DNA of 64,000 nucleotides. Origin: Synechococcus sp. BL107. GTDB lineage: Bacteria; Cyanobacteriota; Cyanobacteriia; PCC-6307; Cyanobiaceae. Positions 27,976 through 44,071 of this stretch are shown here, piece by piece. A program made the position numbers and the translations under genes. The stretch is from the NCBI RefSeq assembly GCF_000153805.1, contig NZ_DS022298.1:1802827-1866826 (forward strand), written 5' to 3'. Position 1 is the stretch's first letter. Each line of letters opens with the position of its first letter. The notes under the pieces were generated by a model that did no database searches, was not told the origin of the DNA, and saw only the letters and a list, made by a program, of their open reading frames with translations.

Positions 27976-29109
27976 TTGGAAACCCATGTCATGGGAGCCG
28001 GTCCGACCGGTTGCATGGTGGCCTTGGCCTTAGCGCAACAAAACCAACGCGTGGTTTTGTTTGACCCTCAAGCCTTTGACGCACTGACATCTCGTAGTCG
28101 TGCCTATGCCATCACCCATTCAAGCCGGCGACTCATGCAGAGCTTGGGTCTTTGGGATGAACTCCAAAAGGATTTGGTGGCCTTCGAACAGCTTGACCTC
28201 CGCGATCTTGCGGCAGGTCGTCAGGTGATTTTCGTTGCAGAGGATTTGGCGAAGAAAAACCGCGGCCATCGCGGGATCGGATGGATCCTTGACCACCGAC
28301 CATTGATGACTGTTCTGTTGCGCAAGCTTCAACAGTCAGGGCTCGTTGAGATGCATCTTGGTGGCGAGGCCGCTCCGATACCGAGCCCCGACAGCCTTGT
28401 TATTGCAGCCGATGGACCGTCATCTCCAACACGAAAAAGCTGGGGTATTCACTGTTGGCAGCACCGCTACCGCCAGGGATGCTTAACCGCCAAGGTGGTT
28501 CTTCGAGGTATCCAAGCCAATCAGGCCTGCGAATTATTTCGGCCTGAAGGTCCGCTGGCCGTCTTACCGCTTGGCAACGACCACTTCCAAGTGGTTTGGA
28601 GCGCACCGATGGAGCGCTGCCAAGAGCGCTGCGCGTTAGCTCCAAGCGAGTTTCTGGACCAACTGGCTGGGATTTTGCCCCAGGGGATCGATCCAGACCT
28701 TCTTTTGGATCAACCGAAGGCCTTTCCCCAACAATGGATGCTGGCGCATCGTCTCAGCCGAGGTCGAGGTGTTTTGATCGGAGAGGCTGGGCATCGCTGT
28801 CACCCGGTGGGTGGACAAGGCTTAAACCTCTGTTGGCGAGATGTGGATGTTTTGGTGAGATCGGTGCAAAAAGGCGGTTCCGCCAAGCGGATCGCAGCCC
28901 GCTACGGACGTCAACGCTGGATCGACCTGATCTTGGTTGGTTCTGCCACCGACTTACTGGTGCGATGTTTCTCGAATCGCATCAGCCTGCTTGTTGGTCT
29001 TAGGCGGATCGCCTTGCAATTGCTGAAGCACAGTGTTGGCTTGCGCCAACTCAGCCTCCGGGCCATGACCGATGGCCCCCTGCAAATCGGGCGAGCGTTG
29101 CCAGACTGA
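27976..29109 (+). CDS. UbiH/COQ6-like FAD monooxygenase
   Basis: About 377 residues, a class A flavin monooxygenase. FAD contacts are THVMGAGPTGCMVALALA at the N-terminus, IAADGPSSPTRK in the middle (DG motif) and GEAGHRCHPVGGQGLNL near residue 265; the usual GDA/S start of the last motif is GE here, a conservative change. In cyanobacteria UbiH-like enzymes are candidates for a hydroxylation step of quinone or other ring compounds; the substrate is not shown. Start: ATGs at 27940 and 27961 lie in the hli terminator hairpin, so the TTG at 27976 directly after the T run is preferred, with ATG 27961 as an alternative. Confidence 0.8.
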   Translation: METHVMGAGPTGCMVALALAQQNQRVVLFDPQAFDALTSRSRAYAITHSSRRLMQSLGLWDELQKDLVAFEQLDLRDLAAGRQVIFVAEDLAKKNRGHRGIGWILDHRPLMTVLLRKLQQSGLVEMHLGGEAAPIPSPDSLVIAADGPSSPTRKSWGIHCWQHRYRQGCLTAKVVLRGIQANQACELFRPEGPLAVLPLGNDHFQVVWSAPMERCQERCALAPSEFLDQLAGILPQGIDPDLLLDQPKAFPQQWMLAHRLSRGRGVLIGEAGHRCHPVGGQGLNLCWRDVDVLVRSVQKGGSAKRIAARYGRQRWIDLILVGSATDLLVRCFSNRISLLVGLRRIALQLLKHSVGLRQLSLRAMTDGPLQIGRALPD

Positions 29110-29128
29110 CCTGTGAAGCGGGGTCGCC

Positions 29129-29341
29129 ATGGTGATGTGCAGCCATCCACAGCCATCCGCAGCAGAGGAACTCGAGCAGTTTTTATTGCGGCGTGTTGGA
29201 TTAAGCCTGAACGCCCTGCAGCTGGGATTGCGTCAGGCAGAGCTTGAACAAGCTCCCTTACCGATTGTTTTGTGGAGCTTCGGGTTACTCAACTTGGAGC
29301 AACTCCAAACGGTGCTGGATTGGCAGGATGCTCAGTCGTAG
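29129..29341 (+). CDS. DUF2949 family small protein
   Basis: A 70-residue soluble protein. [35 protein letters not shown] and [13 protein letters not shown] match DUF2949, a small cyanobacterial helical family of unknown role. Two ATGs (29129, 29135) are close together. It starts 19 bases after the monooxygenase stop and its end overlaps the convergent apt gene by 10 bases. Confidence 0.65.
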
Positions 29342-29859
29342 GCCAGTAATGATTCAACGGGTTGGTCCTGGGGCAACACAGTCCTGCCACCAAGCCCCTT
29401 GAGTTCGATCACAAACGTAAATCCCACCAAACGTCCACCGGCCAGGGTGACCAACTGAGCGGTTGCAGCAGCCGTGCCGCCCGTAGCGAGTAGGTCGTCC
29501 ACCACCAACACCCTCGGTTGGGCTGCCAGTGCGTCGGCCTGAATTTCAAGCCGGTCGCTGCCGTACTCCAACGAATAATCAATTCCCACCACTTCGCCGG
29601 GCAACTTGCCGGGCTTACGAACCGGCACAAAGCCAAGGCCACACTGATGGGCGAGGGGAGCACCGACGATGAACCCCCGGGATTCGATCCCGACAATCAA
29701 ATCCGGACGAGTTTGCTCACACACCAGGGAAAGCTGGCGGATCACCTCCGCGACAGCTTCAGGGGAACGCAGCATCGGATTGATGTCTCGAAACAGAATC
29801 CCAGGCTTGGGAAAATCTGGAATCGTCCGGATATGAGAAGCAAAATCGACCAAAGACAT
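29332..29859 (-). CDS. apt: Adenine phosphoribosyltransferase
   Basis: Salvages adenine to AMP using PRPP. A 175-residue protein with the APRT opening [17 protein letters not shown], the substrate loop GIESRGFI, and the PRPP-binding motif [14 protein letters not shown] near residue 115. The 5' end faces the left boundary of the genomic island, about 40 bases from the first direct repeat, so the insertion lies in or near the apt promoter. Confidence 0.96.
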
Positions 29860-29897
29860 TGCAGTGACTGACTAGAGGGGGTTTTGAGGAGAGGTGT

Positions 29898-29920
29898 AAA
29901 AAGACACCTATAAAGACACC
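29898..29920 (+). repeat. Left island direct repeat (candidate attL)
   Basis: A 23-bp sequence starting AAAAAGACACC and ending AAAGACACC recurs at 39593-39615 in the same orientation with one mismatch (C to T at the eighth base). The left copy lies between apt and the oxidase gene; the right copy lies just upstream of the integrase gene. A third AAAAAGACACC unit follows at about 29923-29933. The pair brackets all the accessory genes, as expected for recombination sites or flanking integrase-binding arms. Confidence 0.75.
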
Positions 29921-29998
29921 GCAAAAAGACACCTGTGTTTACGCACTCTCTCAGGCCACTTGTTCAAAAAACGAGGTCTTGCCTTTTATTTGGGAAAG

Positions 29999-30643
29999 TC
30001 AAAAGGCCACTGCCTTCTGGGAGTTGGCATGGACGTGATCCGCTTCGTCTTTAACGATCGCTTCAACGACATCTCTCATCGACATTGGTTGGTTGTCACC
30101 ACGTACCTTCCACATGCTGTTTGGCTTATTCCAATAGCGAACAGCAGTAGGAACAGCAGGTTGGTTCAGCCATTCATCTGACTGCTCAACCAACATCCGC
30201 TTGTAAGTGGCAACGGCTTCAACCTCGACTGCTTCGCCCAGCAGAGCAGCGAGTTCGTGGTCAATGAGGGTGGTGATGGCGAATGCCCAATAGATGATGA
30301 CGGCGATGTGCCGTGCCAAAAATCTGTCGCCCCAGTTCTTCAGCCCGTTGAGGTCTCTGGCAAAGATGTCTTCGTGGGTTTGCTCGTTGGTGTCCTGATA
30401 ACGAGCGAGTTCCAACGTCTCTCTGATGCTGCCTTTCCTGTCGAGACCAATGGTCTCCAGGTAATGGCAAGCGCTCTCTTCCGCTGTGTAAGCAGTGCGA
30501 GCAATGATCTCAAGTGAAGCTGCTCTTCTTGCATCAGCTTTGCTCCAAACAACATTCAGAAGGCTTTCACCTGTCTCAATGATTTTGTGAGCAACTTCAG
30601 CCTTTCTCGTTTTAGTTTCCATGAGTTTCATAACTCCATACAT
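29999..30643 (-). CDS. Alternative oxidase / plastoquinol terminal oxidase (AOX/PTOX family)
   Basis: A di-iron quinol oxidase that passes electrons from plastoquinol to oxygen without pumping protons, a safety valve for the photosynthetic chain. All six expected iron ligands can be placed (numbering from the ATG at 30643): Glu63 in YLETIG, Glu87 and His90 in NEQTHE, Glu142 in EVEAVATY, Glu200 and His203 in KDEADH. RFLARHIAVIIYW near residue 107 is the membrane-associated helix. At 214 residues it is shorter than plant PTOX and lacks long N-terminal extensions. Starts at 30643, 30631 and 30622 are possible; a GGAG lies 11 bases before the last. It is the first gene inside the left island boundary. 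Confidence 0.85.
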   Translation of the reverse strand: MYGVMKLMETKTRKAEVAHKIIETGESLLNVVWSKADARRAASLEIIARTAYTAEESACHYLETIGLDRKGSIRETLELARYQDTNEQTHEDIFARDLNGLKNWGDRFLARHIAVIIYWAFAITTLIDHELAALLGEAVEVEAVATYKRMLVEQSDEWLNQPAVPTAVRYWNKPNSMWKVRGDNQPMSMRDVVEAIVKDEADHVHANSQKAVAF

Positions 30644-30763
30644 ATGTTGTAGGCCGCTCTCCCACGGGAGTTGTGAACCGATTATGAAGCTTTAGGCATT
30701 TCTGCTATGTATTGCTTACCAATCAAAAAGATAAAGATCAGTAGTGGCTGATGCTGTTGGTAC

Positions 30764-31270
30764 TCAACTCAGCCAGTTGGCATCCACTGAGAAGGTCAAA
30801 ACGGAAACATCTTCATTACCTTCTCCTTCTGCGATAGCAACACAGGCCAACTCGCGGCGGTCAAAAGAGTTCTTTGATTTTGTGGCGAACTTGGCTGCGT
30901 CGTCGTGAGACCAACAGGCCAACCCGCGCTCGTCTCTCTCAACGACGTAGGCATCCCAAACCTCAGCAAACTCCTCACCATCGGGTCCGGCCAGAAACTC
31001 ATTGACGGCCGCTTCGGCACCGATCTCTTTGTGCCTCACCAGAAACACCCTCATCAGCGGGTGGTCGATAGTTCGGCTTGTGGTGATAACACCAGTGATG
31101 CCACGGACAGTGGTCGCAACGACCCTCCGAGGGTTCTGTCTGGCGTCAACAACAACGACCGGGCAAGAAAGGTCCCACTCAGCCCTGTTCTTCAGCTCTC
31201 TTGCTGACTGAGAAAGCTCGCCCTTTAGCTCAGTGATGAGAGTGCTGACGAGAGTTGTCGGGTCAGTCAT
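30764..31270 (-). CDS. Protein of unknown function
   Basis: A 168-residue soluble, acidic protein without transmembrane segments. The N-terminal 30 residues are helical (TTLVSTLITELKGELSQSA), then a β-like VVVVDARQNPRRVVATTVRG, a HKEIGAEAAVNEFL helix and a C-terminal domain with CWSHDDAAKFATKS. I do not recognise the family. It lies 121 bases upstream of the oxidase gene on the same strand, so it may share its transcript. Codon use is ordinary, which supports a real gene. Confidence 0.6.
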   Translation of the reverse strand: MTDPTTLVSTLITELKGELSQSARELKNRAEWDLSCPVVVVDARQNPRRVVATTVRGITGVITTSRTIDHPLMRVFLVRHKEIGAEAAVNEFLAGPDGEEFAEVWDAYVVERDERGLACWSHDDAAKFATKSKNSFDRRELACVAIAEGEGNEDVSVLTFSVDANWLS

Positions 31271-32012
31271 GCCAGGAGGCTACTGACGGCAGACACAAAA
31301 ATGTCCAAACTCCAAGGCGAAGGCTGGGATGAATGGATCTTCAGACAGAGCGTCGAAATAGGGACCAGGAATGATGTTGTGGACTGATGGGGATCGTCGT
31401 GGTTGGTGTCTATGAGAGTGGTGTACGGGTTGGAAGCAGCAGACGGCAGCGTTAAATGCGCTGGCTGCAGCAATAGAACTACTTCCTTGAATGCCTTTCT
31501 TTACATCTCTCGTGAAGAGTTACACATCTAATGAAGATTAGATAATTGAAAAATACAATTATTCAGATAATAAATAAACACCCTTCTCATGCCTTATTCC
31601 TCTTCATGGGGGAGAGGAATCTTTGTTGGACGCACCTGACAAGAGAGAAGCGGAAGTTACACCCCTTCTTCCGTATTCCTCTCCCCCTCCTATTCGCTCC
31701 TTCTCAATTACTTCACCTATCTATTAATTGGCTTTTAAGTTACTAATTTGCGACTGGCTGTCGCCTAGAGGGAAAAAAGCAGATTTACCCCGTTCCGGGT
31801 GCCGCTTAGGTCGGATCGCCAGGGGGTGGTCCTTTTTCATAGGTTCGTACCACCGAGGCATTTGTTTCTCGATTTTCATTGAAAATTTGCCCCTATACCC
31901 AAATAGGTGAAAGCAGGTCTCTACAGATCCCCCGCATGGGTGATGTGGTTCTGATTAATACCGGCGATGGTGTGTTCACGGGGCGAGAGCCTCGCACTTC
32001 AAAGAAACAGCT
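31271..32012. other. Gene-free stretch of the island
   Basis: No gene that I would defend. The 31500-31740 part is very AT-rich with a pyrimidine-rich run near 31670-31700. Around 31820-31860 an inverted repeat GGTGGT/ACCACC with a loop of about 19 bases could form an RNA hairpin, next to a GC-rich block. Short frames on either strand lack family residues, and one (31936-32115) overlaps the better ORF at 32013. Confidence 0.45.
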
Positions 32013-32396
32013 ATGGCTGAATACGGCAAACCTCAATCGGTATTTAAAGAGAAGTCCGCGACTTCGGCAGAGATTAAGTGGATTGAAACGGCTGCAAAAC
32101 GTGGTGAGCAATTGACACTTCAGGAAGCAAGAAAGCAAATTAAAAAATACACAACCATTGCAGTGATATTTTTCGTGTTGCTTTTTGGTGGCTGTGTAAA
32201 CATGATTTCATCGAATAAGGATGATCCAGCAAGTCGAGCAACGGAAACATGTCGCTTGACCGCTGACCTGCATACATCAGAGCAAGGCGCAAGTACTTAT
32301 GTGTTCGCGGAAGGCATCAGTCCCACAAAAGCTTTACTGCATTTCAGGCATCCAAAAAGTGGAAGGACTTGGACAACAAATTACTTTTGCGACTGA
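32013..32396 (+). CDS. Putative membrane-anchored small protein
   Basis: A 127-residue ORF: a charged N-terminal 45 residues, one hydrophobic helix (TTIAVIFFVLLFGGCVNM, residues 47-64), then a polar region with two more cysteines and the ending RTWTTNYFCD. The helix ends in GGC, which resembles a lipobox but is far from the N-terminus, so a single-pass membrane protein is the safer reading. No family recognised. A terminator lies about 120 bases downstream. Confidence 0.45.
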   Translation: MAEYGKPQSVFKEKSATSAEIKWIETAAKRGEQLTLQEARKQIKKYTTIAVIFFVLLFGGCVNMISSNKDDPASRATETCRLTADLHTSEQGASTYVFAEGISPTKALLHFRHPKSGRTWTTNYFCD

Positions 32397-32517
32397 GTAA
32401 TAAACTGTCGGGAAGGCTGATGCCCTATCGCTCTAGGCTGAAAGCAATACAAAACCCTTCGGGGAAAAGCAGGGGGCGCAGGTGTCGCCATCTATCTCCC
32501 GACAAAACATTCACTAG

Positions 32518-32541
32518 CCCCGTCTCAATGGCGGGGTTTTT
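32518..32541 (+). terminator. Terminator upstream of arsH
   Basis: CCCCG/CGGGG stem with a 9-base loop followed by five T. It closes the transcript from the ORF at 32013 and isolates the arsH gene. Confidence 0.7.
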
Positions 32542-32565
32542 ATTGCCCGCAGAGGGTTCACCCAG

Positions 32566-32619
32566 TTGAGGGATGCAAAGCCCAGAAATTGGGCAAAACA
32601 ATCAATCGATTGAGGGATG
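32566..32619 (+). repeat. Two direct TTGAGGGATG repeats upstream of arsH
   Basis: The 10-mer TTGAGGGATG occurs at 32566-32575 and 32610-32619, 44 bases apart (about four helical turns), and 33 bases before the ATG at 32652. A small hairpin GCCCA/TGGGC lies between. The spacing suits two protein-binding sites on one face of the helix, but this is conjecture. Confidence 0.4.
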
Positions 32620-32651
32620 TGTAATTCACTCATCAATTGGAAACTGAACCT

Positions 32652-32783
32652 ATGAAACGTTTTGCCTCCATCACTGCCGCCGTACTCGCTATTAGCGCTG
32701 CAACAGCGACAGCGACAGCGGAAGCTGCACTTACAACGCATTCACTGGCTCCACCTCTTGCTACTGACCCGAAGGAGAACTCA
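32652..32783 (+). other. In-frame signal-peptide segment before arsH
   Basis: From an ATG at 32652 there are 44 codons in frame with arsH: a basic start MKRF, hydrophobic Ala-rich core and a cleavage site near ATAEA. If translation starts here the flavoprotein would carry an export signal, unlike known ArsH proteins. No strong ribosome site precedes this ATG, while a strong one precedes the internal ATG at 32784. It may be the remnant of an exported-protein gene joined to arsH. Confidence 0.55.
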
Positions 32784-33413
32784 ATGACCTCTAAAATTCT
32801 TGTTCAATACGATTCACTTCGTTCCAACTCTGTCAGTCACAAACTGGCACTAGAGGTTCAAAGGTTTCTGACACAGTTTGGAGTTGAGGCTATCGTGGCT
32901 GATCCAAATCTTCCTCTTTACGATGAGGAACTTCGTGATGATCCTAAAGTTCAAGAATACTTGGATCAGGTTAATTGGGCTGATGGATTCGTTTGGATCT
33001 CTCCTGAGCTTCACGGAACTATCTCCGCAGTCATGAAGAATCAGGTGGACTGGATGCAACTTTCTGTCGGAGCTGTTCGTCCTACTCAAGGTAAAACACT
33101 GGCGGTAATGCAAGTTGAAGGAGGATCCCAATCTTTCAATACTGTGAACCTCATGAGGCAGATGGGTCGTTGGATGAGAATGTTCACTATTCCAAACCAG
33201 TCCTCTATTCCTAAAGCTTATCAAGAGTTCACTGAGGCTGGTCAACTTAAGGATTCATCTTTACGTAATCGTGTTATCGATGTTACCGAAGAGTTGGTCA
33301 AGCTCACTGAGATCCTCAAGGATAAAGTTGACTTCCTAACCGATCGTTACTCTGAGCGTGTTGAGTCTGGTGAAGAATTGGCTGAGCGCATGAATCTTAA
33401 GGAGGCCGCCTGA
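32784..33413 (+). CDS. arsH: ArsH-type NADPH-dependent FMN reductase
   Basis: A 209-residue flavodoxin-like protein of the ArsH family, which in other bacteria oxidises organoarsenicals or reduces dyes and quinones with NADPH. The FMN phosphate loop is [10 protein letters not shown]; further on are [14 protein letters not shown], the family block [23 protein letters not shown], and [13 protein letters not shown] with the final DRYSER. The start at 32784 is chosen for the Shine-Dalgarno GAAGGAG 6 bases before it; 44 in-frame codons upstream encode a signal peptide (separate entry). No arsR, arsB or arsC gene is nearby, so a role in arsenic is by family only. Confidence 0.85.
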
Positions 33414-33751
33414 TGAATACTTTACTCAAGAAATATCTTCTTTATAACTTGAGATCACTGACAGTTGGTACCGGATTAAAGGCACTGATTGTTGGAATAC
33501 TTATGTCTAACGAGTATTCCTACTTGCAATCAGTTCCAGTGGGTGCATTCACTGCTATAAACATTTCATTCTCTGCTGATAGGATGATCTTCAGCGAAAA
33601 GAAAAAAGAGAATAAGTTTGTCCTCCCCATCAGCACATCCGTGCCATCAACTGATTCATCAGCACCAGCACATCTTGCAGTTGCAGTTAAACGGGGTCAG
33701 CTAAATCATCCGACTAGGGCAAGCGTTCCAATTCCCCCCACACCCTGCTGA
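33413..33751 (+). CDS. Small membrane protein coupled to arsH
   Basis: A 112-residue ORF whose ATG overlaps the arsH stop by one base (TGATG), so it is translated with arsH. It has a basic N-terminus, a hydrophobic stretch at residues 15-31 and a second moderate one near 40-52, then a long polar tail rich in Ser and Pro. No family recognised. The first 60 residues look more gene-like than the tail; a frameshift or fusion in the second half is possible. Confidence 0.5.
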   Translation: MNTLLKKYLLYNLRSLTVGTGLKALIVGILMSNEYSYLQSVPVGAFTAINISFSADRMIFSEKKKENKFVLPISTSVPSTDSSAPAHLAVAVKRGQLNHPTRASVPIPPTPC

Positions 33752-33797
33752 GTATTTGCAAATTGGCGCTACTGCGAAGCCGTCGGTTGTCGTCTAG

Positions 33798-33821
33798 TTC
33801 CGTCGCAAGGCGGGATTTTTT
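33798..33821 (+). terminator. Terminator after the arsH operon
   Basis: A 7-bp stem TTCCGTC/GGCGGGA (with G-U pairs in RNA) closes on a GCAA tetraloop and is followed by six T. It lies 47 bases after the coupled small gene. Confidence 0.75.
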
Positions 33822-34221
33822 GATTGAAGATCCAGGGCCTTCCTTTACTCATCACGTCGCTGGTCCAGTTCGCCCTATACCTGAAAACGCTCCCTTCCTA
33901 TCTCTTCGGGTAGGGAGAAGCTTGGTGTGAAGAAGGCTTGGTGACGGAGCCCAGGAGGTTCAACTGCCAAGCACATTGAGTTAGCTCTTTCGATACAGCT
34001 ATCCGTAGCGACTGAGTGAATCACAGGTGGAGAGCTGATCAGAGTTATGTCAGTTCGTCGCCTTGATCTGAAGCGATGGATAGGTGAGCACCCAGTGATG
34101 TCTCCATCGGGGTGTTAACCGACTGAAGTGTGTAGTCCCCACTTTCCAGGGGTGGGGCTGCACTTTTCAAAGTGGTGGCTCCGGAAGGTAACGGCTCTGG
34201 GGCTGCAGCTTTACGCGTCCC
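33822..34221. other. Gene-free stretch with hairpins
   Basis: No acceptable ORF on either strand. Two adjacent inverted repeats, CCCCAC/GTGGGG and CACTTT/AAAGTG, lie at about 34137-34175, next to the 3' end of the cysteine-rich gene. They could belong to a small RNA or to that gene's 3' region; no T run follows on the plus strand. Confidence 0.4.
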
Positions 34222-34473
34222 TCAGAAGATGCCTAGAACCCCTTTCTTCTTTTTGCAGTAGCCAGCACCGATATTCATCCACCCCTCTAGGCAGGCTTCT
34301 CCGTTGGTAGGAGCGACCTCGTAATAGATGGGTGATACGCATGTGGTTCCAAGCGTGTTCACGTAACCCAATGGGCATTGATCGTGACCCTCTGCTTTTG
34401 GTATTTCTTTCTGAGCCAATGAAGCTGAGGGAGCCACCAGGAGAGGTAGAAGGGCGATGAGGAAGTAACGCAT
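34222..34473 (-). CDS. Small secreted cysteine-containing protein
   Basis: An 83-residue protein with a clear signal peptide (MRYFLIALLPLLVAPSASLAQ) and a mature part with four cysteines spread through CPLGY, TTCVSP, EACLEGW and GYCKKKKG, suggesting two disulfides in the periplasm. The ATG at 34473 overlaps the stop of the 53-residue gene upstream (TGATG). I recall similar small proteins in marine Synechococcus, without a function. Confidence 0.65.
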   Translation of the reverse strand: MRYFLIALLPLLVAPSASLAQKEIPKAEGHDQCPLGYVNTLGTTCVSPIYYEVAPTNGEACLEGWMNIGAGYCKKKKGVLGIF

Positions 34474-34634
34474 CAGAAGAGCCACCAGCCAAGTAGTAGG
34501 CCAATGATGATTCCTTTGAACCAAACCAGGGCAGCCATCTGATATTCCGTCAGGCCAAGCTTCTTCTTTATCCAGAGGAAGGCTTGCTCGTCAGCGAAGA
34601 TGACAGCACGGATGGGTCGAACGATCCAATCCAT
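34473..34634 (-). CDS. 53-residue membrane protein
   Basis: ATG at 34634 to TGA at 34473. The sequence opens MDWIVRPIRAVIFADEQAF, continues with a charged helix (WIKKKLGLTEYQM) and ends in a single hydrophobic helix GIIIGLLLGWWLF. Both ends overlap neighbours by one base, the hallmark of a coupled operon, which makes it a real gene despite its size. No function known. Confidence 0.65.
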   Translation of the reverse strand: MDWIVRPIRAVIFADEQAFLWIKKKLGLTEYQMAALVWFKGIIIGLLLGWWLF

Positions 34635-34885
34635 CACTGCCCCACCATGTCGAGGTACTTGGTGATGTCACCGCCGTTGCAGTAGCGGACAGCGACAGGC
34701 CGCTCGATGAAGCCACTCTTTCCGTCTTCATCGAGGAACTCAACACCAGTCAGGTTGACGATCCCGGTCTCTGCGTTCTTGACGCAGTTCACGAACTCCT
34801 TGGACTGCTTGGCCATCGGAAGCAGGAAAACAAGACCAGCAAGAACAGCTGCCCCGATAAAGCTCTTCTCAATCTTGGAATTCAT
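34634..34885 (-). CDS. Small membrane-anchored protein, first gene of a three-gene operon
   Basis: An 83-residue protein with an N-terminal helix (FIGAAVLAGLVFLLPMA) that may be a signal anchor, then a soluble part with two cysteines (FVNCVKNAETG and VRYCNGGD). Its stop overlaps the start of the 53-residue gene by one base. The order membrane-anchored, membrane, secreted, all tiny and coupled, suggests one envelope complex. No family recognised. Confidence 0.6.
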   Translation of the reverse strand: MNSKIEKSFIGAAVLAGLVFLLPMAKQSKEFVNCVKNAETGIVNLTGVEFLDEDGKSGFIERPVAVRYCNGGDITKYLDMVGQ

Positions 34886-35075
34886 CTAGGTGATCCTTGA
34901 TTTCTCATGATTTTTAGGACGGGGGCCCGCTCTTGTCCATATGGCGTCAACCAAAACCAATGCCCAGAGTTATTAGTCACCTATTCGGTACAGATACGAA
35001 ACTCCAACAACAGTATTCTTGGCTCACAGGCATTTGTATATCTGAGAGTTTCAGTTGATGATGCCCTTGAATCAA

Positions 35076-35098
35076 GCCCCATCGCAAGGCGTTTTTTT
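35076..35098 (+). terminator. Possible degenerate terminator
   Basis: GCCCCATCGCAAGGCG followed by seven T. The stem is weak (A-C mismatch), but the sequence resembles the other GCAA-loop terminators in the island at 33798 and 36529. No gene upstream on this strand is convincing. Confidence 0.35.
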
Positions 35099-35182
35099 AT
35101 TTGCAGCGGGTAAAACTTCTAGCAGTTGCCAAACGGTCTGATGTCCAGATAATTCATACATTGACTGAAGTGACTTTGTCGC

Positions 35183-36418
35183 ATGTCGGCATTCCAGTTG
35201 TCTCCGCTTGCATCCATCACTACTGGCTTTCTGGTGCTGTTTGTTGGCAAGCGTCTGAATCGTGAATGGAATTTCCTTCAGCGATATTCGATACCTGAGC
35301 CCGTTTCAGGTGGCCTGCTGGTTGCTCTGCTCCTGACAGTTCTGCATGTTCTTGGTGGCCCTGAGCTGCTCTTTAGTCTCGAGTCACGAGATTTCCTACT
35401 GGTCTATTTCTTCACCACGGTGGGGATGAGTGCCCGGTTCCGCGATCTCAGTCGCGGTGGTCCGGCTCTTTTCATCCTGCTTGGGTTGACTATTGCTTTC
35501 ATGACCCTGCAGAACCTGCTTGGTATTGCGATGGCAGGTCTGCTGGGGCTCCATCCCGCCACGGGACTGTTATTAGGAACCGTTTCCCTGATTGGTGGCC
35601 ACGGCACCACCATCGCCTGGGCTCCGACCTTTGCTGAACAGTTTCATATCGAAAATGCGATGGAGATCGGCATCGCAGCAGCCACCTTCGGGCTGGTGCT
35701 CGCCAGTGCCAGTGGCGGTCCGATCGCGCAGTTCCTGCTGCGTCGCTTTCACGTTCCCTGTCCGGATGCGGATGCAACGACGCAGCCAGCTTCCAACGCT
35801 TCGCATCCCTCGGATCAGCAAGGTTCCAGCGCAAATTCCATTGACATCAACGGTTTCCTTACAGCACTGCTCGCTATCAACCTCTGCATCCTTTCCGGCA
35901 CGTTGCTCAATGAAGGGATCGGTGCCGCCGGGTTGAAATTGCCGCTCTTTGTTCCCTGCCTGCTGATGGGCATTGTGTTTTCGAATCTGCTGCCGGAACG
36001 CCGCTCAGAGCAGGTGGTGTTTCATTGGCCCCGTCGTTCTGCCTCGCTCGATCTCATCGGCGAATTATCCCTGGGCATCTTTTTGGCGATGTCGCTGATG
36101 AGTCTCCAGCTCTGGTCACTGGTGGGTCTGGCCTTGCCATTGTTGTTGATCTTGCTGGTTCAGTTTTTCTTCGCTCTGGTGGTGAATCTGCTGCTGGTGT
36201 TCCGTCTGATGGGTCGTGATTACGACGCAACAGTGATTTGTGCCGGGTTCGGTGGCATTTCCCTGGGCTCTACTCCCACGGCTATGGCGAACATGAAGGC
36301 TGTTACGCAGCAGCATGGGCCATCTACCCGTGCCTTTTTGATCGTGCCGCTGGTGTCGGCCTTTTTCCTCGATCTGGTGAACGCCATCCTTATTCCAGCT
36401 TTCGTCGGCGGGTTCTAA
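35183..36418 (+). CDS. gltS: Sodium/glutamate symporter
   Basis: A 411-residue Na+-dependent glutamate uptake carrier (ESS family). Family features: RYSIPEPVSGGLL near residue 35, FFTTVGMSARF near 76, the GGHGTTIAWAPTF loop near 137 and, in the second repeat, CAGFGGISLGSTPTAMANM near 353. About ten to twelve helices are visible, with a polar, Ser/Asn-rich loop at residues 195-220 longer than usual. Codon use looks closer to the core genome than that of the small island genes. A terminator follows. Confidence 0.9.
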   Translation: MSAFQLSPLASITTGFLVLFVGKRLNREWNFLQRYSIPEPVSGGLLVALLLTVLHVLGGPELLFSLESRDFLLVYFFTTVGMSARFRDLSRGGPALFILLGLTIAFMTLQNLLGIAMAGLLGLHPATGLLLGTVSLIGGHGTTIAWAPTFAEQFHIENAMEIGIAAATFGLVLASASGGPIAQFLLRRFHVPCPDADATTQPASNASHPSDQQGSSANSIDINGFLTALLAINLCILSGTLLNEGIGAAGLKLPLFVPCLLMGIVFSNLLPERRSEQVVFHWPRRSASLDLIGELSLGIFLAMSLMSLQLWSLVGLALPLLLILLVQFFFALVVNLLLVFRLMGRDYDATVICAGFGGISLGSTPTAMANMKAVTQQHGPSTRAFLIVPLVSAFFLDLVNAILIPAFVGGF

Positions 36419-36528
36419 TTCAGCCTCCTGATCTCGAGGTTCTGACGGTGTTGAAGATGCCAGTCCTAGAAGTCCAGGTCCGTTTGGATTATTTCCAACA
36501 AACTCACTTCACTGGAGCATGAAATTCA

Positions 36529-36551
36529 CCCCGTCGTAAGGCGGGGGTTTT
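36529..36551 (+). terminator. Terminator of gltS
   Basis: CCCCGTC/GGCGGGG 7-bp stem (one G-U pair) on a GTAA tetraloop, followed by GTTTT. It is about 110 bases after the gltS stop and overlaps the end of the regulator fragment on the other strand. Confidence 0.75.
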
Positions 36552-36651
36552 AGATGCCTGGCTCAACTAAGCCATAGGTCAATGCAAAGACTGCTGCTTG
36601 TGTTCTGTCTAGGGAGCCGAGCTTCTGAATAGCAGTGCTCACCTACGTTTT
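36550..36651 (-). pseudogene. Fragment of a LuxR/NarL-type response regulator
   Basis: Reading the minus strand into the stop at 36550-36552 gives VSTAIQKLGSLDRTQAAV followed by FALTYGLVEPGI. This is the recognition helix and C-terminal end of a LuxR-type HTH (compare the usual KTHV-x-x-I-x-K-L-x-DRTQAAV-x-A). Just before it the frame reads Lys-Thr-stop where Thr-His is expected. Nothing of the rest of the protein is found upstream. A dead remnant of about 30 codons. Confidence 0.65.
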
Positions 36652-36728
36652 AAAGAGAGAGTAAGTCTTGAATCTCTGCTGAAAGAGAAAATAGATAAGC
36701 TCAAGATTTTGATTTCCGAAGACGCTTC

Positions 36729-36878
36729 CTAACCACCTCTTTCAATGGAAGTAGGCCTCCTCAGCTCATCTTTGATGAATCCAGAGACTCCTGCTACCAA
36801 CGGGATAGTCATCCCAACAACAGCCAGAAAAGCCATAGCTTGAATAAACCATTTTGGCGCGAATGGCTTGTCTTCCAT
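36729..36878 (-). CDS. 49-residue single-helix membrane protein, copy A
   Basis: ATG at 36878 to TAG at 36729. The protein starts MEDKPFAPKWFIQAMAFLAV and has one helix to about residue 33, then a charged tail (GFIKDELRRPTS). A second copy at 38219-38368 on the opposite strand has the same length and the same MEDKP-x-x-P-x-WF-x-Q-x-MAF pattern. Conservation at the protein level with much DNA change argues for a real gene. Function unknown. Confidence 0.65.
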   Translation of the reverse strand: MEDKPFAPKWFIQAMAFLAVVGMTIPLVAGVSGFIKDELRRPTSIERGG

Positions 36879-37100
36879 TAGTCAGTTTTGCTTCATATCC
36901 ATGGGACTACCGACATTGCTGATGCTCTTAAGTCTCGATATATGTTCGACCAACCATTAACATGGCTTCAAATTTCGCAATATCTGATACGAACATATGT
37001 GTGGAAATAAAATGATTAGTGATAATCACAATTTACTCAAAAATGCGACGTAAGCTCCACCTGCTTCTCTTCAAGTATTTCGCACCTGGCTGCAGTTAAA
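36879..37100. other. AT-rich spacer
   Basis: It holds the upstream region of copy A (minus strand) and of the next plus-strand ORF. I see no gene and no promoter box that I would name. Confidence 0.4.
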
Positions 37101-37349
37101 ATGAATGAATCTTCGCCAGTCAACGAGACATTTCTTGCGTATGTCATAGGCCTCATTCTCTTGCTAGTGCTTTCAATGTTCATGGGTATGATGATAAAAG
37201 CCGAAGCAGAAAGGCAGGCTCTTATTCTTTTAAAGCCTGTAGAAAGTTCGTCGGATGCTCTGAATACGGGGAACTCTGAGCCATGCAAGAAGAAATGGAA
37301 ATGGCGCTCATGTCCGCCCATCCCCATCGCACTTACCAGACTTGCTTAA
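37101..37349 (+). CDS. Putative single-helix membrane protein
   Basis: An 82-residue ORF with one strong helix (FLAYVIGLILLLVLSMFMGMMI, residues 11-32) after a short acidic N-terminus, then a charged and polar tail ending in a Pro/Trp-rich stretch. No family recognised and no strong ribosome site. An overlapping minus-strand frame (37037-37327) is a weaker candidate. Confidence 0.4.
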   Translation: MNESSPVNETFLAYVIGLILLLVLSMFMGMMIKAEAERQALILLKPVESSSDALNTGNSEPCKKKWKWRSCPPIPIALTRLA

Positions 37350-37462
37350 CTTTCTTTAATAAATAACCCTGCAATTTATCCTGGAAGGTACACTGGAGTC
37401 TAAAATTAACAATTAGATCAAGCATCTAATCAATACGAGCACAAGCTGACTGTTTACTACCG

Positions 37463-37600
37463 ATGAAACACCACAACCCACATGCCAAGTTGCGTAAACT
37501 TGAACGACAGGCTGTGACCTGTTTAACCAGAAAGAAAGCGCAGAAGATATTGAGGAAGGTTGAGAAGATTGAGCACAAGCTGCACCTATCTAACACTTGA
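37463..37600 (+). CDS. 45-residue basic protein
   Basis: ATG at 37463 to TGA at 37600. A Lys/Arg/His-rich helix: MKHHNPHAKLRKLERQAV, then CLTRKKAQKILRKVEKIEHKL. The regular spacing of hydrophobic residues suggests one amphipathic helix, possibly nucleic-acid binding. Too short for family recognition; supported by coding-like composition only. Confidence 0.45.
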   Translation: MKHHNPHAKLRKLERQAVTCLTRKKAQKILRKVEKIEHKLHLSNT

Positions 37601-37713
37601 CAAGCCTTTCAGTAACTAGATTTTTCAATAAGCAGTTGTCAAGCGCACTTAACTATTAATCGTCTTCAAAAACTAGCCCTAACGCAAAAGCGAGCTATCG
37701 GATGACCCACGCA

Positions 37714-37953
37714 CTAAGACATAAGCCGAAGTAATCCATAAGGGCCAGCCGCCCTCCAACCTCGACCGACATTGACACCTATAGGGGAATATCTGAGGTC
37801 TTCTATCAGGCGCTCAAAAACATATCCCCAATACGAGTGAACGTCCTCAAAGCAGCCAGCCAGCGGCTTCTGTACTCCAGTCATCATCAACAGACACAAG
37901 GCTGTACCCGTCTTGAACAAAGTATCCTGCCTTTGTGCCATATGGGACACCAT
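37714..37953 (-). CDS. Doubtful small ORF
   Basis: A 79-residue frame with a moderate hydrophobic segment (GTALCLLMMTG) and two cysteines. No family, no ribosome site. It is the only frame of this size in 37600-38018, which otherwise holds nothing. Confidence 0.28.
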   Translation of the reverse strand: MVSHMAQRQDTLFKTGTALCLLMMTGVQKPLAGCFEDVHSYWGYVFERLIEDLRYSPIGVNVGRGWRAAGPYGLLRLMS

Positions 37954-38000
37954 AAGACATTATTTACTACGCAAAGCTTGTGATCACGATATTTAATTTG

Positions 38001-38016
38001 TAAGCCCTAAGGCTTA
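38001..38016 (+). promoter_or_regulatory. Hairpin just before a 27-codon ORF
   Basis: TAAGCC/GGCTTA stem with loop CTAA ends two bases before the ATG at 38019. It could mask or present the start region. No T run follows, so it is not a terminator. Confidence 0.35.
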
Positions 38017-38018
38017 CG

Positions 38019-38102
38019 ATGCTTTTCTTGATTGTATCTACTGTTTTATTATTTATTGCCTTATTTTTTTCATTACTTGATCAATGGTTCCAGCGAGAGT
38101 AG
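38019..38102 (+). CDS. 27-residue hydrophobic peptide
   Basis: ATG at 38019 to TAG at 38100-38102. The peptide MLFLIVSTVLLFIALFFSLL ends in DQWFQRE: one full transmembrane helix with a charged end, the build of tiny photosystem or respiratory subunits or type I toxin peptides. The size alone makes it tentative. Confidence 0.35.
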   Translation: MLFLIVSTVLLFIALFFSLLDQWFQRE

Positions 38103-38193
38103 ATGTCATTTACGCCACTAAGATATCTTACTATATAAAAAACATAAGCTGATGCAGTCCGCACCATTTGGTCCTCTCATCATCTTTCATTGG

Positions 38194-38199
38194 TATAAT
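38194..38199 (+). promoter_or_regulatory. Consensus -10 box (TATAAT)
   Basis: A perfect TATAAT lies 20 bases before the ATG of copy B. The -35 region is poor, as is common in cyanobacterial promoters. The short distance would make a very short leader. Confidence 0.4.
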
Positions 38200-38218
38200 T
38201 ACTTTTTGGATTTAGACA

Positions 38219-38368
38219 ATGGAAGACAAACCTCTTTCACCACGATGGTTTGTCCAGGGGATGGCATTTATAGCCATTGTTGGTTTTACGATCCCAATGA
38301 TTGCTGGTGTAGCTGGCTATTTAAAGCAAGAGCTGAGTCAGCCATCACACAATGAGAAGCAGGGATAA
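38219..38368 (+). CDS. 49-residue single-helix membrane protein, copy B
   Basis: ATG at 38219 to TAA at 38366-38368. Paralogue of the gene at 36729-36878: MEDKPLSPRWFVQGMAFIAI, then GFTIPMIAGVAGYLKQEL. About 27 of 49 positions agree with copy A and nearly all changes in the helix are conservative. It reads toward the integrase gene, which is on the other strand. Function unknown. Confidence 0.65.
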   Translation: MEDKPLSPRWFVQGMAFIAIVGFTIPMIAGVAGYLKQELSQPSHNEKQG

Positions 38369-38387
38369 TTAGAGGCGATAAAGAAGT

Positions 38388-39587
38388 TCAGCCAAGCAAG
38401 TTCTCTATGAATGTCCAGACTTTTTGTGCTTCTCTAAGCAAGACTTCATCAGCAAATAGACCATAAGACTGAGCTACTCGCGACCCTTCTTTCTTGGCAT
38501 GACCTGTGATTGCTTCAATAACAGAGTCATTGCAATCAGCACGTCTAGAGATTGAGTAAAAGGTGTGCCTAGCACTGTGGACTGTTGCCGTTGGATCAGG
38601 GATGTCTTTACTCAACTCCCTTGCAAGCATTGTTGTTTTTGAAGAGACCATGATCTTGTGAGGTGTTAGCTCAAAGTCTTTTGGGACAGGAAGTCTTCGA
38701 TAAGAGGAAGGTGTTTTAGGTCTCCACTCACCTTTGGAAGGCTGTCTATCAATTGTCAGCATCTGACCGTGGAGATCTTGAGAAAGACGAGAGAAGTACT
38801 CACCTGACCTCAAGCCGGTCATGATCATCCAGAACACTTGTGGGTATTTCTGATGAATGAGTCTGATCTCTTCATCAGTGAAGGTTCTACGTTGTTCAGC
38901 CAAAGGAGTTTTGGCACTGTATTTAACGTCTTTAAAAGGGTTAGACGTATTGACCATGTCATTAGTGATGAGTGCTGAGAAGACAGCAGTTAAGTAGCCC
39001 TTTTTAGTTTTGATTGAGTTTGGCTTGTACTTCTCTTCCATGTCATCAATCCACTGCCTCACTATTTGTTTAGTGATTTGGTGTGGTTGTCCGTTATGAG
39101 AGAAGGCTTCAACAGCTTCTCTAACTTTTGGGATGGTTCCAGCAGAAACAGGCTGTAGGCGGTTCCTATTGGCTTCCTTGAGCCAGAGATCTAGTGCTTC
39201 ATCCCAAGTGACAGGAAGAGGCTGACCTGATTTGTAGTACTGAAAGACAGCATCGTGAATTGGGTCTTCTGGATTGAAGCCACCAAGGGTGATGCGGGAT
39301 AGCTCCAAGGGGGCGAGAGGATCATTACCTCCGGTTAGGTCTGACTCTCTTCCACACTCAACACGCTCTCTAAACGCATGTGGCTTGAGAAGGGCTTGAA
39401 GATCTGCCTCTAGATGTGAAAGGGCTACTCCGTACCGTTTAAGCGCTAAAGAGTGGTCTGTGGTCTGCAGAGACCTAACAAGACGTTCTTTTCTTACCGC
39501 AGCTCTGTCTTTCTGCTTGATGTGGAGGACAGCAAAGAAAGGTCCACCTGATTTGAGCTGTCTTGGACCGTGCTTTCGCCTACTCAC
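38388..39587 (-). CDS. Tyrosine recombinase / phage-type integrase
   Basis: A 399-residue site-specific recombinase. Catalytic residues are all found in the C-terminal domain: Arg in MTGLRSGEY, His-x-x-Arg in VHSARHTFY, His in ITGHAKKEG and the nucleophile Tyr in VAQSYGLF. An N-terminal SAM-like core-binding domain spans about residues 125-225 (TWDEALDLWLKEANRN). The extra N-terminal 100 residues may be an arm-binding domain. It starts 6 bases from the right direct repeat, as is normal for island integrases next to their att site. Confidence 0.93.
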   Translation of the reverse strand: MSRRKHGPRQLKSGGPFFAVLHIKQKDRAAVRKERLVRSLQTTDHSLALKRYGVALSHLEADLQALLKPHAFRERVECGRESDLTGGNDPLAPLELSRITLGGFNPEDPIHDAVFQYYKSGQPLPVTWDEALDLWLKEANRNRLQPVSAGTIPKVREAVEAFSHNGQPHQITKQIVRQWIDDMEEKYKPNSIKTKKGYLTAVFSALITNDMVNTSNPFKDVKYSAKTPLAEQRRTFTDEEIRLIHQKYPQVFWMIMTGLRSGEYFSRLSQDLHGQMLTIDRQPSKGEWRPKTPSSYRRLPVPKDFELTPHKIMVSSKTTMLARELSKDIPDPTATVHSARHTFYSISRRADCNDSVIEAITGHAKKEGSRVAQSYGLFADEVLLREAQKVWTFIENLLG

Positions 39588-39592
39588 ACCCC

Positions 39593-39615
39593 AAAAAGAT
39601 ACCTATAAAGACACC
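39593..39615 (+). repeat. Right island direct repeat (candidate attR)
   Basis: Copy of the repeat at 29898-29920, same orientation, 22 of 23 bases identical. It sits directly upstream of the integrase start. The following bases differ from those after the left copy, so the repeat ends here. Confidence 0.75.
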
Positions 39616-39738
39616 TTAGAAGACTTATTTTTAGTCGTCAACAGGATTTTAGAAGGTCAATCCGATGTCGTTCGGATATGCGATTGAAGATCCAAAGCCA
39701 GGTGACGAGAGGGCATAACCCCTGGCATCATCGCAGCC

Positions 39739-40275
39739 ATGACAGAAGTCTCTGAGCAATCTGGTGCCCGCCTCAGCCGTCGAGGCGTTGAACGACTCGA
39801 CCTCCTACTCCTCACCGTTGAGGCCCTCGACCTCAACGGGGGTGAAGCGATGTTGTGGACAAGCCACCAGATGGGGCTTCAGGCCCAGTTTCCGAATCGT
39901 GTTGAACTGTGGAAGCGGCGGTGCCACAACCCCCTGCGCCGCACCACGCGCAGGGAGCAGCTCAATCCCGTGGATGCCGAATCCCTGATTTGCTTGGTGT
40001 GTGCCATGGCTGAACGGCTGTATCCCATGCTTCACCAGTTGCTCTCTAGCCGTGAACCGGCTCAACTCACCCATGAGCGCTGGACGTTGCTCAAAGAACG
40101 CCTGGGAGATCTAATCGAAGAGCGCATGAATCTTCGACGGGGTGCTGTGGTGCATCTTCTGAATCACGACAGTGATGGTCCCCTTCACCGCCAACTGATC
40201 AACACCCTCGCCCTCTGTGCTGGCCCCGGTGGGATCGACAGACTGCGCGCCACGTTGCTCGACCCCACGCCTTAA
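39739..40275 (+). CDS. DUF3038 family protein
   Basis: A 178-residue soluble helical protein. The pair with the DUF4335 gene that follows is typical of cyanobacteria. RGVERLDLLLLTVEALDLNGGEAML near residue 15 and the helix LICLVCAMAERLYPMLHQLL are the recognisable parts. No known function. It is the first conserved gene to the right of the island; only the att region separates it from the integrase. Confidence 0.68.
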   Translation: MTEVSEQSGARLSRRGVERLDLLLLTVEALDLNGGEAMLWTSHQMGLQAQFPNRVELWKRRCHNPLRRTTRREQLNPVDAESLICLVCAMAERLYPMLHQLLSSREPAQLTHERWTLLKERLGDLIEERMNLRRGAVVHLLNHDSDGPLHRQLINTLALCAGPGGIDRLRATLLDPTP

Positions 40276-40296
40276 CCCCACGCCCTAGGTCCCGCC

Positions 40297-40920
40297 ATGC
40301 AAAAAAACAGCTACCGCTACGAACAATCGGCCGCTCTTCTACTCGTGGAGGGGTACCCAGATTTATCCGCCGGTCACGGCAACGAGGCCATTGGAATTTT
40401 GTCCGCTTGGCGTCTGCAGCTCATCGGCACGCCGGAACTCGAGGGCACCCGCGACCATCTCGAGTCGTTAATGACGGCCGTAATGCCATATGCGCGCCAC
40501 CAGCTATCAGGTGTTGGCCGTCGCTTCGGTGCCAACAGTAGTTTTGTTTCCATTGGCCCGATGGAGTCGGGACCAGGGCATCAGCTGGAACTGCGCAGCA
40601 GTCGTGAAGGGGTCGAACCGCTACAGCTCAAATTGGATGATGCCGACCTGGCTGATCTGGTGCGCTGCCTGGATCGACTCCGCTTGGACGAACGCGTCAA
40701 GCTGACTTGGACAATCCCGGCCGATCAACCGCTGAAACGTCAGGACTTAGTGGATCGCATTCCACTGCAACGCCGACTAGCTGCACCAATTCTTGGCGGA
40801 TTTGCACTCGCCGCAACGGTGGGAGTTGCTCTGCTCCAACCCTTACCCCCGATCGGAGAAGAGTCGGCAAAACCAATGGCCCCAGGACTTGAAACAGCCC
40901 AACCCGATGCCGAACGTTGA
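40297..40920 (+). CDS. DUF4335 family protein
   Basis: A 207-residue protein. The N-terminal 150 residues (KNSYRYEQSAALLLVEG and the LELRSSREGVEPLQLKLDDADLADLV stretch) resemble DUF4335, and a single hydrophobic helix near residues 165-183 (PILGGFALAATVGVALLQP) with a polar tail would anchor it in a membrane. It starts 21 bases after the DUF3038 gene. No known role. Confidence 0.65.
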   Translation: MQKNSYRYEQSAALLLVEGYPDLSAGHGNEAIGILSAWRLQLIGTPELEGTRDHLESLMTAVMPYARHQLSGVGRRFGANSSFVSIGPMESGPGHQLELRSSREGVEPLQLKLDDADLADLVRCLDRLRLDERVKLTWTIPADQPLKRQDLVDRIPLQRRLAAPILGGFALAATVGVALLQPLPPIGEESAKPMAPGLETAQPDAER

Positions 40921-40974
40921 CGACAGACACTCAGCCTTCAGAATCGATAGCAACAGCACATCAGTTCAAAGGGC

Positions 40975-41220
40975 ATGGGTGACAGCTGGTCGGACCTGAG
41001 ACGACGTGTTGCCCGCATCGGAGCATCGCTCGACGTGGTGGTTCGGAGCGACCCAGAGGTCTGTGGGCTTAGCGGATTGGACTATCACCTCACCCTTCAT
41101 CACAGTGGTTATGGCGATTGCACGGTGGGGTGTCTCACCCTGATCAACTGTCCAAACGAACTAGTGCTGATTGAATTTGCACGCTGGATGCGTGGGGCAG
41201 GCGAAACCCTCGAATCATGA
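40975..41220 (+). CDS. Small conserved protein of unknown function
   Basis: An 81-residue soluble protein (MGDSWSDLRRRVARIG start; LTLINCPNELVLIEFARWM near the end). It has three cysteines and no membrane helix. Its TGA overlaps the ATG of the next gene (ATGA), so the two are coupled. Not recognised beyond a vague resemblance to picocyanobacterial hypotheticals. Confidence 0.55.
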   Translation: MGDSWSDLRRRVARIGASLDVVVRSDPEVCGLSGLDYHLTLHHSGYGDCTVGCLTLINCPNELVLIEFARWMRGAGETLES

Positions 41221-41585: not shown

Positions 41586-41728
41586 GGAGGTGCTAACGAT
41601 CGCTGCCTTCCCCAAAGCTCCACAAACGTGACCGTTCGACCCCAATCCTCGTCCAAGCATCTGCAATGACGGGCGGTCCAGGAGATGACCTGGGGCTTGC
41701 CATCGTGAATCATGTTGTTGATCAGCAT
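41570..41728 (-). CDS. 52-residue soluble protein, antisense end overlap
   Basis: ATG at 41728 to TGA at 41570-41572. The sequence has a compact, protein-like pattern: KPQVISWTARHCRCLDEDWG and RTVTFVELWGRQRS. The frame is open 12 codons further up (reading FELACQELNLDP), so a longer form with an odd start is possible. The plus-strand frame over the same bases (41666-41872) looks like its shadow. Family unknown. Confidence 0.5.
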   Translation of the reverse strand: MLINNMIHDGKPQVISWTARHCRCLDEDWGRTVTFVELWGRQRSLAPPQGRP

Positions 41729-41861
41729 GGGGTCAAGGTTCAGTTCTTGACACGCCAGCTCGAACTACATCATCCCTCTAATACAAACAAAACTACTGGC
41801 CAATTCGCGCAACAATTAGCATTCCAAACCATCAACAAAAATAAAAAGCAAAGAGCACATA

Positions 41862-42827: not shown

Positions 42828-42941
42828 TGATTAGGTGTGGAAATAATAATTCGGTGACCGTCTGCATCAGTGGTGAATCCAAAGCAGGGAATGGAGCCTG
42901 CGACACCAAATTTCGATGTCCTATACGCCATAATTACAGGC

Positions 42942-43124
42942 ATGACGAATAGCACACCCACCCTCCTGATTTGGCTTGTCCAGTACAGGAAGTATCTCGA
43001 CTTGGTTCAGCAAGATTTGCTCGAGCAGGCAGAGCTGGTTAAGGCCGAAATCAACGAAGCGCTCCCCGATGCAGAATTATGCTGGGAAGACCTGGAAAGA
43101 GCTGCACAAAATCTCAAACAATGA
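42942..43124 (+). CDS. Small acidic helical protein
   Basis: A 60-residue ORF from the ATG at 42942 (MTNSTPTLLIWLVQYRKYLD), with a helical acidic second half (QAELVKAEINEALPDAELCWEDLERA). The frame is open upstream to 42870, but those residues look random. No family known. Confidence 0.42.
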   Translation: MTNSTPTLLIWLVQYRKYLDLVQQDLLEQAELVKAEINEALPDAELCWEDLERAAQNLKQ

Positions 43125-43208
43125 TTGGTCGATACCGATCAAAGCTATTGAGCATCTAATACTTGTTAATGGTCTTGCACTACTTCCTCATGTCAATTTC
43201 AACATACT

Positions 43209-43481: not shown

Positions 43482-43552
43482 TCAGCCGATCGATTGATTG
43501 AAACCAGATAAGAACCCCTGCTCTGATAATGGGCTAATCAACGTGCAAAGCC

Positions 43553-43921: not shown

Positions 43922-44071
43922 ATCAGCCCAACTTTGGCGACAGACCATTCGTTGAACTCACTTTTAGGCCTTTGTGCTCCTTGCTACAAAGCCAGATACA
44001 GCTAAACCAAGGGAGTCGGGAAACAAGCTTCCCTTGGCGATCCACAAGCAGAAACCCTGCACAACCAACCA

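Follow-up and report, generated by a model that had tools for sequence, protein, structure and literature searches.

What is a gene for a putative quinol oxidase doing at the edge of an inserted island, and by what route did it come there? The gene is found in the window, by which is meant the whole stretch of 64,000 nucleotides analysed here from Synechococcus sp. BL107. Enzymes of the AOX and PTOX type are bound to one face of a membrane, where electrons from a quinol are passed to oxygen at a di-iron centre and water is formed. The reaction pumps no protons, and it relieves an over-reduced plastoquinone pool.

We propose, with a probability of about 0.7, that the gene product is a small di-iron quinol oxidase, a safety valve for plastoquinol, that the gene is carried by an element of 9.85 kb which a recombinase inserted in apt, and that it moves almost singly among marine Synechococcus, while a few viruses carry relatives of it. 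At the plastoquinol step between photosystem II and photosystem I, the oxidase would divert electrons and reduce oxygen to water without proton pumping, which is what would make it a valve. A tyrosine recombinase would have placed the element in the 5' end of apt, so that apt obtained a new start, and the oxidase gene, in many cases together with some 90 bp from upstream, would move as a unit of nearly one gene. The quinol substrate, the reduction of oxygen, the membrane site and a benefit under stress are predictions from sequence, and protection under iron or light stress is plausible.

Identity of the oxidase

The reading frame matches the Pfam AOX family (PF01786) over residues 34-209 with E 9.9e-13 and 48.7 bits, where the curated cut-off is 22.7 bits, and it matches PHROG 4235, 'plastoquinol terminal oxidase', with E 8.8e-14; a comparison with NCBIfam gave no match. 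It is the only frame in the 2,285,034-bp genome that matches the AOX family. Since the residue equivalent to Met8 is the start in several relatives, a product of 207 amino acids (29999-30622) is likelier than one of the full 214 codons. The pattern E, ExxH, E, ExxH, by which the superfamily is recognized, is complete, and the six di-iron ligands E45, E87, H90, E140, E200 and H203 are identical in all 51 rows of an alignment obtained from 75 rows by leaving out 24 (22 from Prochlorococcus, one duplicate and one fragment). L44, H60, Y147 and D199 are likewise invariant in these rows. In the alignment extended with AOX, columns 87 and 140 have one exception each among the 6 AOX rows. In pairs with estimable dS, the dN/dS of the oxidase is 0.01-0.12.

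An AlphaFold2 model built with 26 sequences (mean pLDDT 91, pTM 0.88) has the four-helix-bundle fold of AOX. Its best match in Foldseek is the trypanosome alternative oxidase 3vva (E 2.6e-5). Among the candidates supplied by Foldseek itself, VIA-align fits the model to the trypanosome alternative oxidase 3w54 with Z 20.6 and an rmsd of 2.5 over 195 residues, whereas the non-oxidase di-iron proteins listed score at most Z 13.4. By profile, ligands and fold, membership of the AOX/PTOX superfamily is confirmed. A chance reading frame or a ferritin-like protein is ruled out by the family match, the conservation and the fold, and a CADD-like protein found in the PDB by sequence (E 0.11) was set aside.

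The original prediction had stated that all six ligands can be placed, as is indeed the case. It had also called the protein short, which is only partly right: the Pfam match spans positions 40-213 of the 216-position profile. The PTOX of Prochlorococcus and the common phages is shorter than the oxidase, with 166-173 amino acids (two phage reading frames read longer, from an upstream start). Two outcomes had been named as fatal to the prediction, a model in which the ligands do not face each other and a tree in which the protein is grouped with non-oxidase di-iron proteins. Neither occurred, the first being judged from the fold match (Z 20.6 against 13.4) and not from ligand distances, and the second from the family and fold matches, which carry the weight here since the trees contain no non-oxidase rows.

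Relation to known oxidases

Cyanobacterial PTOX is 26-30% identical to the oxidase, the PTOX of Prochlorococcus and the common phages 25-29%, and the AOX rows about 24% on average (20% for the AOX of genome G339). Two trees were constructed, the second with five proteobacterial AOX added. In this second tree the Synechococcus type groups with its viral relatives (support 100/99), and ordinary cyanobacterial, Prochlorococcus and phage PTOX fall together with the Synechococcus type outside (95/96); both trees have long branches and unsettled bootstraps. In an AU test, a tree joining all picocyanobacterial types was not rejected (p 0.34, with long branches). The original prediction had proposed a tree of this kind.

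To see how the oxidase relates to each known type, consider first ordinary cyanobacterial PTOX, with which it has seven positions in common (R49, Y52, S57, E63, G66, D106 and W119). The two differ in that their identity is about 28%, in that the oxidase has a shorter loop before the last helix, and in position 142, which is Glu in all 12 rows of the oxidase type and in 5 of the 6 AOX rows, but His in all 23 rows of ordinary PTOX. The alternative oxidases of trypanosomes and proteobacteria have the fold (Z 20.6), the ligands and Glu142 as in the oxidase, but the trypanosome structure is 18% identical and the AOX rows are without R49, Y52 and E63. The PTOX of Prochlorococcus and the common T4-like cyanophages (PHROG 4235) belongs to the same superfamily, has the six ligands and is a proposed electron valve, but it is set apart by 25-29% identity, by His in place of Glu142, by a separate group in the tree and by about 40 residues fewer before the last helix. 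TAYT at 50-53, E91 and R96 are peculiar to the Synechococcus type.

The word plastoquinol-type in the original prediction has to be qualified, given an identity of 25-30% to ordinary cyanobacterial, Prochlorococcus and phage PTOX and the AOX-type E142; for this oxidase the word is an extrapolation from the family. From the low identity and the position outside ordinary PTOX follows that the quinone used could be a different one. A recent origin from the common cyanophage PTOX is ruled out by an identity of about 26%, and a plasmid origin was rejected as well, four cyanobacterial records from the plasmid search being 26-31% identical.

A wider proposal, which we make tentatively and at somewhat less than even odds, is that the Synechococcus oxidase is a third AOX/PTOX lineage, distinct from ordinary PTOX as well as from AOX, which was acquired separately from the PTOX of Prochlorococcus and cyanophages and is passed on as a module of one gene, complete with an upstream region of its own, into different islands and viral genomes, so that the valve would be a trait of mobile DNA and not of lineage. 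Given the p value of the AU test and the long branches, the third lineage is a lead and not a result.

Two further observations concern the relatives. The PTOX of Prochlorococcus and the common phages keeps the last ExxH in spite of its gap of about 40 residues, which comes after the third ligand helix. Genome G339, which is incomplete and filed in the same genus, has on contig 110 a far stronger match, to an AOX of proteobacterial type (E 6.5e-71), by transfer or contamination.

The element and its attachment site

The element of 9.85 kb is delimited by two copies of TCGTYCGGATATG, at 29823 and 39668 (Table 1). When at most one mismatch is allowed, this core occurs 3 times in the window, where 0.12 occurrences are expected; the third copy, with one mismatch, is at 29698-29710 on the minus strand. 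Each end also has a 23-bp arm-type repeat, and the part common to both arms, TAAAGACACC, is found in the window at exactly two places, against 0.04 expected. The start of the recombinase gene adjoins the right arm. Its residues given in Table 1, which we take to be the expected catalytic motif of a tyrosine recombinase, were read from the window and four relatives (L101, L103, L104 and L106). Compared with phage records, the integrase has no match at E 1e-5. Direct repeats, an empty site in relatives and a recombinase with its motif, by which an integrative element is recognized, are all present.

Table 1. Positions of features in and around the element, in coordinates of the window
Feature	Position	Strand	Basis or remark
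apt, target gene	29332..29859	minus	first codons replaced: MSLVDFAS in place of MPSRHLALDLQS
Left attachment core TCGTCCGGATATG	29823..29835		5' end of apt; comparison with empty sites
Left 23-bp arm-type repeat	29898..29920		repeat search
AOX/PTOX-family oxidase	29999..30643	minus	214 codons; Pfam, PHROG, ligands, AlphaFold2 model, VIA-align
Upstream stretch, about 90 bp	30623..30713	minus	travels with the oxidase in G291, G319, G034
168-aa protein, no assigned function	30764..31270	minus	upstream of the oxidase, same strand
Small ORF, no assigned function	32013..32396	plus	ORF call
ArsH-like NADPH-FMN reductase	32637..33413	plus	274 bits, below NCBIfam ArsH cut-off 292
Small protein phrog_3508 (unknown function)	33413..33751	plus	PHROG match
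Small ORF, no assigned function	34222..34524	minus	relative near the oxidase in G034
Small ORF, no assigned function	34634..34885	minus	ORF call
GltS sodium/glutamate symporter	35183..36418	plus	profile matches
Tyrosine recombinase (integrase)	38388..39587	minus	phrog_1 E 2.3e-26; R260, H337, R340, H363, Y375
Right 23-bp arm-type repeat	39593..39615		22/23 identical to left
Right attachment core TCGTTCGGATATG	39668..39680		comparison with empty sites
DUF3038 gene	39739..40275	plus	right flank; neighbour of apt in empty sites

Because the left core is inside the 5' end of apt, the element gives apt a new start and presumably a new promoter too, and what used to be the 5' end now lies cut off beside the right edge of the island. 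The surroundings of apt were compared in 15 relatives, among which one contig (G273) ends at apt, so that 14 are informative. In 12 of these the site is empty, i.e., apt is next to the DUF3038 gene. The interval between these two genes is about 2.2 kb in G234, which has a similar replaced apt start and a left end 82% alike over 261 bp with other contents, and about 5.8 kb in G162, where the attachment core is intact and the insert is found further on. From these other insertions follows that the interval is a hotspot. Behind the homologous left end in G234 there is a glycosyltransferase-like reading frame.

The GC content of the island is 0.478, and its tetranucleotide distance from the background is 0.365, compared with 0.132 (sd 0.029, maximum 0.184) for 25 control stretches. 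An Rfam scan of 29000-41000 gave no match at the gathering score, and promoter predictions, which were fewer for the island than for shuffled sequence, carry no weight here. Tycheposons are defined by insertion at a tRNA gene. The present element resembles them, and integrase-borne cargo islands in general, in having a tyrosine recombinase at one end, a few adaptive cargo genes and a size of about 10 kb, but it is attached in a protein gene, apt; the single tRNA in the window is at 8731-8807, 21 kb from the island.

The expectation that the oxidase is carried on a mobile island and next to an integration boundary thus agrees with what is found, as the gene is inside the attachment repeats of the integrase-bearing element with its stop codon about 160 bp from the left core. 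The mobile setting is genuine and its limits can be given, and the element may still be able to excise.

Movement of the gene among genomes

An AOX-family match is present in 95 of the 400 genomes of the family. The Synechococcus type occurs in 12 of the 34 genomes of the genus, a count which leaves out G339 with its AOX of another type, and in G034 of another GTDB genus; the scans of genomes and viruses need exact peptide patterns, and rarer relatives can therefore be missed. The type is divided into two subgroups. The six genomes of the first have the gene at one place, near a gene that presumably encodes a SulP-like transporter; this place was followed gene by gene in two genomes and by two flanking matches in four, and because it is conserved the subgroup looks settled. 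The second subgroup consists of seven genomes including that of the window. In G319, and by a shared right flank also in G291, the gene is in a variable interval more than 200 kb from the apt site, and the flanks of the interval in G319 map to 2.062-2.063 and 2.070 Mb of the chromosome of the window. In G234, G343, G034 and G273 the oxidase has other neighbours, with isolated shared genes.

Around the oxidase, the DNA shared with the window is about 720 bp in G291, G319 and G034, i.e., the gene, about 90 bp upstream and less than 10 bp downstream. In G343 it is about 800 bp, together with a separate reductase block of 1.25 kb at 92%, and in G234 and G273 it is the coding region alone. A few further blocks, of 80-250 bp, are shared with the window elsewhere. 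As the upstream stretch of about 90 bp travels with the gene, it is likely to be the promoter or leader of the oxidase itself.

The nearest recombinase matching PF00589 is about 9.0 kb from the oxidase in G234 and 5.4 kb in G343, and G291, G319, G034 and G273 have none on the contig of the gene or within 200 kb of it, figures which are lower bounds since PF00589 missed the integrase of the window itself. From this miss, and from the lack of a nearby recombinase in four genomes of this seven-genome subgroup, follows that carriage on an element can be stated for the window only.

Could the element be dead, in the sense that it is an old and fixed insertion and that the gene now moves by homologous exchange between islands only? 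What G291, G319 and G034 share with the window, about 0.72 kb, is indeed not the element, the insert of about 2.2 kb in G234 has other content at the same site behind a replaced apt start, and no conjugation or replication gene was recognized in a scan that covered nine ORFs of the island but not the small ones at 37037-37953. A recombinase with its motif is nevertheless present, and the two attachment cores differ at 1 of 13 positions and the two arms at 1 of 23. We regard a dead element as less likely than not.

Viral relatives and the neighbouring reductase

Phage S-N03 (two accessions, one record) carries an oxidase of the Synechococcus type at 69% identity, whereas the other phage records, which account for 49 of the 51 matches, are below 60% among the 40 matches listed. 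In the first tree S-N03 is sister to the subgroup of the window, and in the AOX-extended tree it is basal. The passages on these genes in the S-N03 paper note the neighbouring oxidoreductase and treat the oxidase as a common cyanophage gene, a treatment that is not borne out by the two identities just given. Five viral contigs from IMG/VR carry the Synechococcus type (L008, L009, L010, L255 and L256). In three contigs an identical terminase gene comes directly after the oxidase, which is 85-89% identical to the six-genome sister subgroup, and in two, from one sample, the oxidase is 81-83% identical to that of S-N03. The common PTOX type was confirmed, with one query, in 406 viral contigs. The contigs with the adjacent terminase look non-T4.

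Directly downstream of the oxidase in S-N03 is a reductase, 72.5% identical to the ArsH-like reductase of the island. In the phage the two genes are thus neighbours, but in the window some 2 kb separates them and they point in opposite directions; the 12.6 kb of the phage examined contains no integrase element, while the window has one. S-N03 (two accessions) is the sole cyanophage with the reductase among the phage records, and the scan of viral contigs with the reductase confirmed no relative. In the genus, the reductase occurs in 4 of the 34 genomes, one of which is without the oxidase; in G343 it is within 3 kb of the oxidase and in G225 on another contig. A tight operon of oxidase and reductase is ruled out by this rarity and by an adjacency seen in S-N03 only.

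A protein with the fold of AOX may have another job, perhaps to oxidise a different hydroquinone or to remove oxygen, with the ArsH-like NADPH-FMN reductase as supplier of electrons. Such a job would suit the arrangements in S-N03 and G343, the Glu142 as in AOX and the residues that are the protein's own. Most carriers of the oxidase are, however, without the reductase, and the residues R49, Y52, E63 and G66 of helix 1 are PTOX-like, which makes a different job unlikely. We keep the role of a safety valve for plastoquinol as the predicted function.

Discordant histories

If the oxidase had been inherited together with the rest of the genome, its similarity between two genomes should follow that of carB. 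The two disagree in both directions: between G034 and G343 the DNA identity is 93.9% for the oxidase and 71.1% for carB, and between G000 and G234 it is 77.5% for the oxidase and 93.5% for carB. The comparison is without G273, which has a broken reading frame, and G319, which has no full carB. Together with the differing loci and the bounded element, this discordance lends support to the transferable copy of the original prediction, and it indicates, as far as sequence can tell, that the gene moves between loci, strains, species and GTDB genera as a unit of nearly one gene. Vertical inheritance beside an unrelated island, with which the one conserved place in the sister subgroup would agree, is extremely improbable and is ruled out by the position of the gene inside the attachment repeats and by the carB comparison; there is also no oxidase match around apt in any of the 15 relatives, and just 12 of the 34 genomes have the type.

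Relation to earlier work

PTOX genes in such Synechococcus are already published. A section of PMC3037559 names Synechococcus 'BL101' (presumably BL107), WH8102 and CC9902 as carriers of the gene, but not CC9605, and refers to Bailey et al. 2008 for electron flow of this kind in a marine Synechococcus, where it is important under iron limitation. The PTOX meant there is probably of the same gene family as the present oxidase. That section deals with presence alone; the element, the apt site, the discordant history and the gap to the PTOX of Prochlorococcus are absent from it. A passage of PMC3441193 mentions PTOX in a few marine Synechococcus, and one of PMC5063861 reports that the PTOX transcript of BL107 drops with other photosynthesis genes on filtration. 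A paper of 2008 maps the islands of BL107 and CC9902 (PMC2441476); 'PTOX' and 'terminal oxidase' do not occur in its main text. In the literature searched, mostly outside subscription papers, no description was found of the element, of apt as attachment site or of the traffic in a single gene.

PTOX in picocyanobacteria tends to be treated as one trait of open-ocean strains. Should it consist of two distinct lineages, and should one of them travel as a single gene among species and viruses, phylogeny would not tell which strains have it. Nearly identical genomes with and without the oxidase could then be set side by side, and an island for which the empty site is known would provide a clean test, by gain and loss, of the idea of an electron valve. 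The new apt start provided by the element is in itself a neat case of an element that mends the gene it has entered.

Other features of the island and its surroundings

The 168-aa protein encoded upstream of the oxidase has no match in Pfam, PHROG or NCBIfam. In G285 and G225 the ArsH-like reductase (93-95% identical) has no oxidase nearby, and in G225 two integrase matches flank it within the contig. Four related, hairpin-like repeats of 27 nt followed by T runs, at 32513-32539, 33793-33819, 35072-35098 and 36524-36550, are probably similar terminators behind cargo genes. Two stretches of about 80-100 bp, 31898-31977 and 32405-32505, recur near the oxidase in G291, G319 and G343 with 75-84% identity and in different arrangements, and may be small repeats common to islands. 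To the right of DUF3038/DUF4335 and outside the attachment repeats there is a second stretch of low GC (41600-49000), which contains PPK2, a DUF938 methyltransferase, a nuclease-like gene and a gene of MscS type.
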